Shown piece by piece: positions 24,827 to 55,443 of a DNA stretch of 64,000 nt; position 1 is the stretch's first letter, and each line of letters opens with the position of its first letter. The position numbers and the translations under genes are program-made. The notes beneath the pieces are model-generated. The model did no database searches, was not told the DNA's origin, and saw only the letters and a list, made by a program, of their open reading frames with translations. This DNA comes from Salipiger pentaromativorans (lineage in GTDB: Bacteria > Pseudomonadota > Alphaproteobacteria > Rhodobacterales > Rhodobacteraceae): assembly GCF_024721115.1 (NCBI RefSeq), contig NZ_JAMDHK010000002.1:434001-498000 (forward strand). The letters run 5' to 3'.

Positions 24827-27709
24827 CTACTCCGCCGCCACCTTGCCCGGCCTCAGCATCGGCTTGAGGTAACGGCCGGTATGGCTGCGCTCGACCTCGG
24901 CCACCTCTTCGGGCGTGCCGGTTGCGACGATCTCGCCGCCGCCATCGCCGCCCTCGGGGCCGATGTCGATGAGGTGGTCTGCGGTCTTGATCACGTCGAG
25001 ATTGTGCTCGATCACCACCACCGTGTTGCCCTGCTCCACCAGCTCGTGCAGCACTTCGAGCAGCTTGCGCACATCCTCGAAATGCAGCCCCGTGGTGGGC
25101 TCGTCGAGGATATAGAGCGTGCGTCCGGTGGAACGTTTCGCCAGCTCTTTCGACAGCTTCACCCGCTGAGCCTCGCCGCCCGAAAGCGTTGTCGCCTGCT
25201 GGCCCACCTTGATATAGCCGAGCCCCACGCGCATCAGCGCGTCCATCTTCTCGCGGATCGAGGGCACCGCCTTGAAGAATTCCTGCGCCTCTTCAACCGT
25301 CATATCAAGAACGTCGGCGATGCTCTTGCCCTTGAAGCGAATTTCCAGGGTCTCTCGGTTGTAGCGCTGGCCCTTGCAGGTTTCGCATTCCACATAGACA
25401 TCGGGCAGGAAGTGCATCTCGATCTTGATGACGCCATCGCCCTGGCAGGCCTCGCAGCGCCCGCCCTTGACGTTGAAGCTGAACCGCCCCGGTTTGTAAC
25501 CGCGCGCCTTGGCCTCGGGCAGCCCGGCGAACCAGTCGCGGATCGGGGTGAAGGCGCCGGTATAGGTGGCCGGGTTCGACCGCGGCGTGCGCCCGATGGG
25601 GCGCTGGTCGATGTCGATCACCTTGTCGAGATGTTCGAACCCCTTGATCGTCTCGCAGGGCGCGGGCGTCTCGCGCGCGCCGTTCAGCTTCATCGCGGCG
25701 TTCTTGTAAAGCGTCTCGATGGTGAGCGTCGACTTGCCGCCGCCCGAGACGCCGGTGACGCAGACGAACTTGCCCAGCGGAAATTCGGCGGTCACCTCCT
25801 TGAGATTGTTGCCGGTCGCCTTGACCACGGTCAGTTTCTTCTTGTTGCCCTTGCGCCGGGTCTCGGGCACGGCGATCTCGCGGGCGCCGGAGAGGTACTG
25901 ACCGGTGAGGCTGGCGGGATCGGCGGCGATGGCCTCGGGGGTGCCGTGGCTGACCACCTGGCCGCCATGCACGCCGGCGCCGGGGCCGATGTCGAAGACG
26001 TAATCCGCCTGGCGGATCATGTCCTCGTCATGCTCGACCACGATCACGGTATTGCCCTGATCGCGCAGGGATTTCAGCGTACCGATGAGCCGGTCGTTGT
26101 CGCGCTGGTGCAGACCGATGGAGGGCTCGTCGAGCACGTAGAGCACACCGGTCAGGCCGGAGCCGATCTGGCTCGCGAGCCGGATGCGCTGGCTTTCGCC
26201 GCCGCTCAGGGTGCCCGCGGCGCGGCTCATGGTGAGATATTCGAGCCCGACATTGTTCAGGAATCCGAGCCGCTCGCGGATCTCCTTGAGGATGGCGCGA
26301 GCGATCTCGTTCTTCTGGCCGGTAAGGCTGGCGGGAACGGTTTCGATCCAGGCGAAGGCCTCTTTGATCGACATCTCGACCACCTGGCCCACATGCAGCC
26401 CGGCAATCTTGACCGCCAGCGCCTCGTCGCGCAGCCGGTAGCCATGGCAGGCGCCGCAGCGGCGGTTGTTCTGGTAGCGCTCGAATTCCTCGCGGATCCA
26501 GTTGCTGTCGGTCTCGCGATAGCGGCGCTCCATATTCGGGATGACCCCCTCGAAGACACGGGAGACCTGGTAGATGCGCCCGCCCTCGTCGTAGCGGAAG
26601 GGGATTTCCTCGTCGCCGGAGCCGTAGAGAAAGACCTGCTGAACATGTTTCGGCAGGTCCTTCCAGCGGTCGTTCTTGTTGAACTCGTAATGCTTGGCGA
26701 TGGCTTCGATGGTTTGCAGAAAATAGGGCGACTTGCCCTTGCGCCACGGCGCGATGGCGCCATCGGCCACCTTGAGCGTGGCATCGGGCACCACCAGCCG
26801 CTCGTCGAAGAACAGCTCGACGCCAAGCCCGTCACATTCCGGGCAGGCGCCGAAGGGGGCGTTGAAGGAGAACAGCCGCGGCTCGATTTCGGGGATGGTG
26901 AAACCGCTGACCGGGCAGGCGAAATTCTCGCTGAAGGTGATGCGGACCGGCTCCTCGGTCTCTTGCGAGCCCTCCTCGCCCGGGCGCGGCGCGGTTTCCA
27001 GGATGGCAATGCCCGAGGCCAGATCCAGCGCCGTGCGGAAACTGTCGGCCAGCCGGGTCTCCAGCCCCTCGCGCACCACGATCCGGTCGACCACCACGTC
27101 GATGTCGTGGCGGAATTTCTTGTCGAGCGTCGGCGGGCTGTCGAGCTCGTAGAACTCGCCATCCACCTTGACCCGCTGGAAGCCCTGCTTGCGCAGCTCC
27201 AGAAATTCTTTCTTATACTCGCCCTTGCGGTCTCGGATGATCGGCGCCAGCAGATAACCGCGCGTCCCCTCTTCCATCGCCATGACCCGGTCGACCATGT
27301 CCTGCACCTGCTGCGCCTCGATGGGCAGGCCGGTGGCGGGCGAATAGGGCGTGCCGACGCGGGCGAAGAGCAGCCGCAGATAATCGTAGATCTCGGTCAC
27401 CGTGCCGACGGTCGAGCGCGGGTTCTTCGACGTGGTTTTCTGCTCGATGGAGATCGCGGGCGAGAGGCCCGAGATGTGATCCACATCGGGTTTCTCCATC
27501 ATGTCGAGGAACTGCCGCGCATAGGCGGACAGCGATTCCACGTAGCGGCGCTGTCCCTCGGCATAGATCGTGTCGAAGGCCAGCGACGACTTGCCCGAGC
27601 CCGACAGCCCGGTGATCACCACCAGCTCGTCGCGGGGAATATCCACGTCGATGGATTTCAGATTGTGTTCGCGCGCGCCGCGCACTTCGATCTGCTTCAG
27701 CTCTGCCAT
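24827..27709 (-). CDS. uvrA: Excinuclease ABC subunit A
   Basis: Damage-recognition ATPase of nucleotide excision repair. The 960-aa protein has two ABC ATPase halves: Walker [10 protein letters not shown] (about 31-39) and GVSGGGKST (about 650), with signature motifs of the LSGGE type in both halves. It also has the UvrA zinc fingers, including CPVSGF...GACPEC in the first half and CEACQGDG...CETC in the second. The start at 27709 matches [17 protein letters not shown] and has GGAGG just upstream; the frame runs on upstream without coding signs. It is divergent from the rhodanese gene. I looked for a LexA-type GTTC-N7-GTTC box in the 153-base gap and did not find one. Confidence 0.98.
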
Positions 27710-27803
27710 GAGACCTCCGGATCCGGATGCCCAACACATAGGCGAAAGCCCGGGCTTCGCCAATCGCAAAGTGAGAACATAGCGGGAACTTTCGCGCATC
27801 GCC

Positions 27804-27831
27804 TTTACATTCGCAATCATGAATGTATATC
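27804..27831 (+). promoter_or_regulatory. Rhodanese promoter with nested ATTC-N8-GAAT operator
   Basis: TTTACA (27804-27809) and TATATC (27826-27831) are 16 bases apart, forming a good promoter. Exactly in the spacer lies TACATTC-N8-GAATGTA (27806-27827). ATTC-N8-GAAT is, as I recall, the recognition pattern of the persulfide-sensing ArsR-family repressors SqrR/BigR. A repressor bound there would block polymerase, and a rhodanese is a fitting target. Confidence 0.6.
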
Positions 27832-27862
27832 CCTTGAGCAACAGAGCCAATGGAGTCGCCGA

Positions 27863-28222
27863 ATGTTCGCTTTTCTGACCGGTAACCGCGCCGCCGACAT
27901 GAGTGCCGCCGAGGCTGTCGAGAAATCCCGCGCGGGCGAGATCGTGGTGATCGACATCCGCGACGGTATGGAGCTGAAGGCAACCGGCAAGGCCAAGGGC
28001 GCACTGCATGTGCCCATGGCCGCCTTCAAGATGCGCTGCGACCCCAGCAGCCCGGAATGCCTGCCCGAACTGAAATCGGGCAAGCCCATCGCGGTCTATT
28101 GCGCCAGCGGCGCGCGTTCGGGCATGGCCAAGGGCATGCTCAAGCGCTTCGGCTACGAAGACGTGCACAATATCGGCGGTCTGGCCCATTGGCAGCGCGC
28201 CGGCGGCGCCATCGAGCGCTGA
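27863..28222 (+). CDS. Rhodanese-like domain protein
   Basis: Single-domain sulfurtransferase of 119 aa, probably cytoplasmic. The catalytic loop is CASGARSG with nucleophile C80, and the CH2A-like and CH2B-like strands ([20 protein letters not shown]) are present. Three cysteines (C60, C66, C80) occur, two of them in a DPSSPEC insertion outside the active loop. TGGAG lies nine bases before the ATG. The promoter holds a persulfide-type operator, so induction by sulfide or persulfide is predicted; the cognate regulator is not in the window. Confidence 0.92.
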
Positions 28223-30018: not shown

Positions 30019-30064
30019 GCAAATTCCTTCAAAGGAATTTGCAAATCTTTTCGAAAAGATTTGC
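30019..30064. repeat. Twin-palindrome element, copy A
   Basis: Two perfect palindromes abut and share a central GC: GCAAATTCCTT-CA-AAGGAATTTGC (30019-30042) and GCAAATCTTTT-CG-AAAAGATTTGC (30041-30064). The total is 46 bases. It lies between the convergent vWA and aglK genes and could end transcription in both directions. Copies B and C have the same architecture. Confidence 0.8.
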
Positions 30065-55397: not shown

Positions 55398-55443
55398 ACA
55401 AATCTCTTCGAAGAGATTTGCAAATTCCTGATCAGGAATTTGC
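55398..55443. repeat. Twin-palindrome element, copy C
   Basis: CAAATCTCTT-CG-AAGAGATTTG (55399-55420) abuts GCAAATTCCTG-AT-CAGGAATTTGC (55420-55443). It has the same 46-base layout with shared GC as copies A and B. It separates the convergent eno and zapA genes and could terminate both. Confidence 0.8.

Follow-up and report, generated by a model that had tools for sequence, protein, structure and literature searches.

The inverted repeat TACATTC-N8-GAATGTA at positions 27806-27827 of the window (the 64,000-nucleotide stretch of Salipiger pentaromativorans DNA analysed here) is very probably the operator of a SqrR/SoxR-type ArsR repressor, set across the spacer of a rhodanese promoter. We favor this reading because the perfect core ATTC-N8-GAAT recurs at orthologous promoters with a gap of fixed length and is missing from their flanks, because the genome encodes regulators carrying both sensor cysteines, and because sister sites lie near sulfur genes. 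Positions 27804-27831 read TTTACATTCGCAATCATGAATGTATATC. Two seven-base arms, TACATTC (27806-27812) and GAATGTA (27821-27827), stand either side of an eight-base gap (27813-27820), with the perfect core at 27809-27824; the repeat itself is assigned to neither strand. The arms overlap a probable -35 hexamer, TTTACA (27804-27809, plus strand), and a probable -10 hexamer, TATATC (27826-27831, plus strand; a weak match to TATAAT), which are 16 bases apart. A Shine-Dalgarno-like GGAG (27852-27855, plus strand) follows, 7 bases before the ATG. The repeat, its coordinates and its placement between TTTACA and TATATC had been described in a sequence-only reading of this DNA, and all were exact when read again from the letters. 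A generic sigma-70 scan flagged no promoter here; TATATC is without the position-6 T that the scan demands.

The orthologous promoters were assembled from three sources. A genus search gave 6 loci from 20 genomes at 72-100% identity, with 29 of 35 rows dropped as paralogs (<72% identity). A family search of 149 genomes, 126 of them with some match, supplied the 29 best new loci among the best 30. Named genomes, the nearest being Salipiger abyssi and S. bermudensis, contributed 27 of 28 loci, a Chryseobacterium locus (L110, 34%) being dropped. The resulting 62 upstream regions reduced to 56 distinct ones, the other 6 being duplicates of a genome present in two collections. Within 250 bp of the gene, the perfect core was found in 43 of the 56 distinct Rhodobacteraceae rhodanese loci (own locus included; 42 of the 55 others), against a shuffle mean of 0.125 of 56. 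Gaps of 0-19 bases other than 8 matched in just 0-3 of the 56, and the 226,459 bases of flanks from the same loci held no match to the perfect core. Thus, it is conservation at orthologous promoters that lifts the site above chance. Indeed, the bare eight-letter core is only mildly unusual in the window and not rare enough to count (3 matches against 0.89 expected, with 5 of 100 shuffles reaching 3), and the other two matches belong to a different hairpin repeat. That small excess might be taken to leave room for an AT-rich palindrome that arose by chance in the spacer of a promoter, an explanation already refuted by the footprint of conservation, confined as it is to the gap of 8 and absent from the flanks; we regard it as exceedingly improbable. 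A strand-symmetric matrix made from 50 relatives' rhodanese sites, with the window's own site left out and those of congeners kept, scores the repeat at 37.7 and no other place in the window above 10.7. Beyond the best 30 family loci, 7 of 10 further, more distant promoters also carry the perfect core.

The 13 loci without the perfect core comprise five genomes with another paralog of the regulator, discussed below, one further genome (G038) and seven named loci. The seven are one MAG and six Rhodobacter loci, mostly with ATTC-N8-GCAT, the form present in R. capsulatus. In G038, whose genome is 91% complete, the site matches 7 of 8 letters and no regulator was found. Among the 43 promoters with the perfect core, the site lies at most 80 bp from the start in 24; TTTACATTC is present in 10, all of them among these 24, and in 35 a TAT is found where GAAT ends or immediately behind it. 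The placement of TTTACATTC and TAT in relatives therefore makes promoter hexamers and operator seem interleaved.

The gene downstream (27863-28222, plus strand) had been called a rhodanese, and profile searches agree: PF00581 scores 50.4 bits (cut-off 22.2) and the best PDB match is 2hhg (E 3.4e-15). The product is a stand-alone rhodanese of 119 residues with a CASGARSG loop, and this is the gene that we propose to be regulated. Its divergent neighbor, uvrA (24827-27709, minus strand, translated from 27709), is not proposed as a target. Since uvrA is divergent from the rhodanese in 54 of the 56 orthologous loci, the palindrome might instead have been kept for uvrA, or might serve another regulator, its likeness to SqrR sites being incidental. 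We consider this unlikely, with only a slim chance of being correct. In the window, uvrA has a box of its own, GAACATAGCGGGAAC (27775-27789), which reads GTTC-N7-GTTC on the minus strand and which we take to be the alphaproteobacterial LexA-type box. Read as GAAC-N7-GAAC, it is present in 51 of the 56 orthologous upstream regions, and uvrA and LexA were rejected as owners of the palindrome on the grounds of this separate box. Moreover, the two loci that have no uvrA nearby (L066 and L067) still have the perfect site. Two further results given below also speak against another owner: the form of the operator varies with the recognition helix of a SqrR-like paralog, and other high-scoring matches to the matrix lie beside sulfur genes.

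The sequence-only reading had taken the core for a SqrR/BigR-type pattern, and ATTC-N8-GAAT is indeed in print as the deduced RcSqrR recognition site in PMC9774250, the one paper in which our search found this string. Other R. capsulatus papers report that the rhodanese domain protein rcc01557 increases over 10-fold in sulfide or in the absence of sqrR and that its deletion prolongs sqr expression (PMC9995734), that SqrR binds the sqr promoter (PMC9143464), and that trxC is induced more than 20-fold, with a printed primer reading across ATTC-N8-GAAT just before it (PMC10044876). SqrR control of a rhodanese is already published for R. capsulatus and our proposal is therefore not new in kind. 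The trxC site was not among the core matches listed in the R. capsulatus strain that we searched. Five sites in R. capsulatus fit WNATTC-N8-GAATNW; judged by sequence, the genes that they precede include an AhpD-like gene, one resembling sqr and one for an RND adaptor that lies 5 kb from sqrR. Five places with a rhodanese domain were found in R. capsulatus and scanned as four loci, one of them covering two places; a site of at least 10 bits stands at just one place, the ortholog of the window gene (16.4), and this ortholog is probably the SqrR-regulated rcc01557. The Salipiger arrangement resembles the R. capsulatus SqrR regulon of sqr, rcc01557 and trxC in its ATTC-N8-GAAT operator, its stand-alone rhodanese target and its two-cysteine ArsR repressor. 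It differs in that the Salipiger site is perfect and apparently interleaved with the promoter, whereas the probable R. capsulatus ortholog has its ATTC-N8-GCAT some 105 bp upstream, and in that the Salipiger genome has two candidate regulators.

PF01022 has eight matches in the genome, none of them on the window's contig (C22). Two encode SqrR-like ArsR regulators: an orphan (C34:110257-110544; helix RQAAVSQM) and one within the sox cluster (C7:48595-48861; helix RQAAVSQQ). The sequence-only reading had seen no regulator nearby, had hung its case on a SqrR/BigR homolog being encoded elsewhere in the genome, and had cast the rhodanese as a distal regulon member; two homologs are present, and their location on other contigs fits that picture. 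For both proteins the first PDB match is chain 13ct_A/6o8l (E 8.5e-34 for the orphan and 1.7e-33 for the sox-cluster protein), presumably SqrR itself, whose printed letters agree with R. capsulatus protein L180. Alignment to 13ct/6o8l indicates that both proteins keep the two sensor cysteines, the first in ILC and the second in FC near the C-terminus. Filing them as BigR was rejected, the NCBIfam model NF040642 scoring 107.1 bits (C34) and 93 bits (C7) against a cut-off of 155; they belong to the same subfamily but score below the line for BigR equivalogs. BigR of Xylella and Agrobacterium and YgaV of E. coli share the ArsR subfamily and the published sensor chemistry with the Salipiger proteins, but their target gene differs. 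YgaV reportedly binds over its own promoter. The C7 regulator is closer in setting to SoxR, the sox-cluster ArsR repressor of Hyphomicrobium denitrificans and Paracoccus, since it too lies in a sox cluster and has both cysteines. A DsbD-like gene runs divergently from it (63.6 bits with the DsbD profile, under the cut-off) and, as in SoxR systems, a good site stands just before Salipiger soxX; in contrast to those systems, the rhodanese gene stands apart from the sox cluster. Literature searches on the BigR box, on sulfide in Salipiger and on regulon compilations found nothing relevant.

A genome scan for ATTC-N8-GAAT, as had been suggested, returned 53 matches, of which 41 were scored with the matrix, 9 were hairpins left unscored and 3 fell outside the listing. 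Taking all 53 as a regulon was rejected: among the 50 listed, 15 are the hairpin ATTCCTTNNAAGGAAT, along with 3 near variants. In the window, hairpin repeats AAATTCCTNNNNAGGAATTT lie just behind gene ends at 30021-30040 and 55422-55441 (0 expected in shuffles), and similar hairpins are present in two other genomes (G001 and G072). These repeats look like bidirectional terminators, and they contaminate any scan for SqrR sites.

The rhodanese site ranks first of the 41 scored (37.7). As the matrix was built from rhodanese promoters, the remaining sites are a fair test of it, and four of the eight next best adjoin genes with sulfur profiles over cut-off: C15:52352, between a TIGR01244-SQR fusion and SulP (rank 3; 30.9); C7:50769, before soxX and near SoxY (rank 4; 28.8); C22:204342, before a Sulf_transp pair (rank 6; 22.5); and C22:352840, before the gene of a TIGR04315 octaheme cytochrome, in the tetrathionate reductase family (rank 9; 18.6). 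A weaker candidate is C11:439517, before a SoxH-related MBL gene below cut-offs (rank 8; 19.0). No sulfur gene was seen at the other three: C23:1137, some 240 bp upstream of a resolvase gene (rank 2; 34.1); C15:28308, before the gene of a transporter-like protein that matches no Pfam family (rank 5; 23.2); and C37:204016, between MBL and PfkB-like genes (rank 7; 19.9). The resolvase site (L134:1137, G000:C23) is on a 19-kb contig, of which the 3.5 kb read holds no sulfur gene. Imperfect sites were also found before the SQR fusion (19.2) and between two sox-cluster genes (L117:9134; 18.6). In the same genome, tandem SqrR-type sites exactly 25 bp apart stand before a Sulf_transp pair and before a transporter-like gene (L131:1818/1843 and L127:1784/1809), and a pair with the same spacing occurs in another genome (G115:C17:385812/385837); such spacing suggests that binding may be cooperative.

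A comparison of regulators revealed that 5 of the 35 genomes examined for them encode a SqrR-like paralog with the helix SQSYVSGQ in place of RQAAVSQ (here T-type). These paralogs share 75-100% identity with the query, L183, and no other match exceeds 51%. The rhodanese lacks the perfect core in exactly these five genomes and in G038, and the other 29 have it (Fisher p 1.8e-5 for paralog against missing core, with kinship ignored). On a UvrA tree of 38 rows, of which only 7 of 35 inner branches are firmly supported and from which L066, L067 and L080 were left out (no or short UvrA), explaining the trait takes 4 changes, no fewer than 2 of them forced; shuffled labels need 4.8 on average, and the trait is therefore not clustered on the tree. 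A sixth genome with the paralog, G099, also has no perfect core at its rhodanese, and it matches the T-type template at only 9 of 12 letters. Of the nine other genomes added, seven have the perfect core and two, without the paralog, lack it; these nine are not among the 30 paralog matches, a listing that does not name every genome searched.

In most of the six paralog genomes the rhodanese motif resembles ATTNC-N6-GNAAT. A wider search found relatives of the paralog in 30 of 394 genomes, 22 with the helix SQSYVS and 8 with PQAYVS, GQAYVS or SQAYVS. Before the 30 paralog-type genes, ACATTNC-N6-GNAATGT is matched at 9 or more of 12 letters in 22 cases (shuffle mean 2.4), of which 10 reach at least 11 letters (shuffle 0). 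None of the same 30 genes is preceded by a complete ACATTC-N8-GAATGT; 11 of its 12 letters are matched before one gene and at least 10 before 10 (shuffle mean 0.27), the last because the two motifs share most letters. When promoters are ranked by the difference between a T matrix, made from 22 regulator promoters, and the SqrR matrix, the five paralog-genome rhodanese promoters come first of 56 (+15.2, +10.6, +4.1, -1.7 and -3.2), with a thin margin at the bottom, where the next promoter stands at -4.1; the promoter at -1.7 (L082) is itself among the SqrR-matrix sites. The T matrix is not wholly independent of the rhodanese promoters, since the template used to pick its sites was read off them. 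Five genomes with the T-type paralog have 8 sites of the bare pattern ACATNNCNNNNNNGNNATGT and five without it have 11, so that the paralog brings no excess of sites; the case for the T-type motif therefore lies in where the sites stand and not in their number. In G068 the motif stands before the gene of the paralog itself, as it does in G147 with a single mismatch, and it also precedes genes named from sequence as ETHE1-like (G147) and thioredoxin-like (G135). Five copies of the SQSYVSGQ paralog (L182, L183, L185, L202 and L203) have both cysteines. Their neighbors include, by sequence, DUF442/TIGR01244-like sulfurtransferase genes beside three of the copies and a YeeE-like gene beside one, and sites like ACATTNC-N6-GNAATGT precede some of these genes.

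Regulator and operator thus seem to have changed together. We think it fairly probable that in Rhodobacteraceae the recognition helix of a sulfane-sulfur repressor sets its operator code, that there are at least two such codes (RQAAVSQ with ATTC-N8-GAAT and SQSYVSG with ATTNC-N6-GNAAT), and that in scattered lineages the second repressor took over the rhodanese promoter, where the operator was rewritten without leaving its -35/-10 frame; the site in the window would represent the first code. Our literature search found no paper on such a pairing of helix and operator.

Of the two Salipiger regulators, the operator could quite plausibly answer mainly to the sox-cluster one, SoxR-like and responding to thiosulfate oxidation, and not to the SqrR-like orphan and sulfide, though we stop a little short of calling this probable. 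All 29 of the perfect-site genomes examined have a regulator with the helix RQA(A/S)VSQQ (Q-type), whereas the M-type helix of the orphan occurs in 17; this search covered the G genomes, R. capsulatus (L100 = G167) and the named loci coinciding with a G genome, and the helix pattern recovered 60 of 62 fetched regulator loci (L243 and L246 were missed). Furthermore, the orphan gene is matched at 83% or more in all 20 Salipiger genomes (in one of them an in-frame stop is reported), of which 6 have a close rhodanese ortholog, and the 14 kb around it hold no matrix match of at least 9 bits. Nevertheless, both regulators are present in each of the 6 Salipiger genomes that have the rhodanese, so that co-occurrence within the genus does not decide between them, and nor do the recognition helices RQAAVSQM and RQAAVSQQ tell the two apart. 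In three of the five paralog genomes, a Q-type regulator is present beside the T-type paralog and yet the rhodanese is without the Q-type core, and a paper on H. denitrificans describes a pair of such repressors with common targets (PMC12423496).

For operation of the proposed SqrR/SoxR-type operator, we carry over binding, repression, induction and the feedback role from published work on SqrR of R. capsulatus and SoxR of H. denitrificans. When sulfane sulfur is lacking, the dimer would be reduced and would sit between the -35 and -10 hexamers and block RNA polymerase. Oxidation of sulfide or thiosulfate would raise persulfides, and sulfur would then bridge the two cysteines. The bridged repressor would leave the operator and the rhodanese would be made; the enzyme may in turn move or drain sulfane sulfur, helping to end the response.

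Of these results, the two-code pattern is the one that specialists may not expect. The rhodanese promoter offers a natural experiment, in which the same gene and promoter frame carry two operator versions that track two helices. A single palindrome leads to a testable regulon in a non-model marine bacterium, in which genes for sulfide and thiosulfate oxidation and a distal rhodanese may be joined under one operator code.
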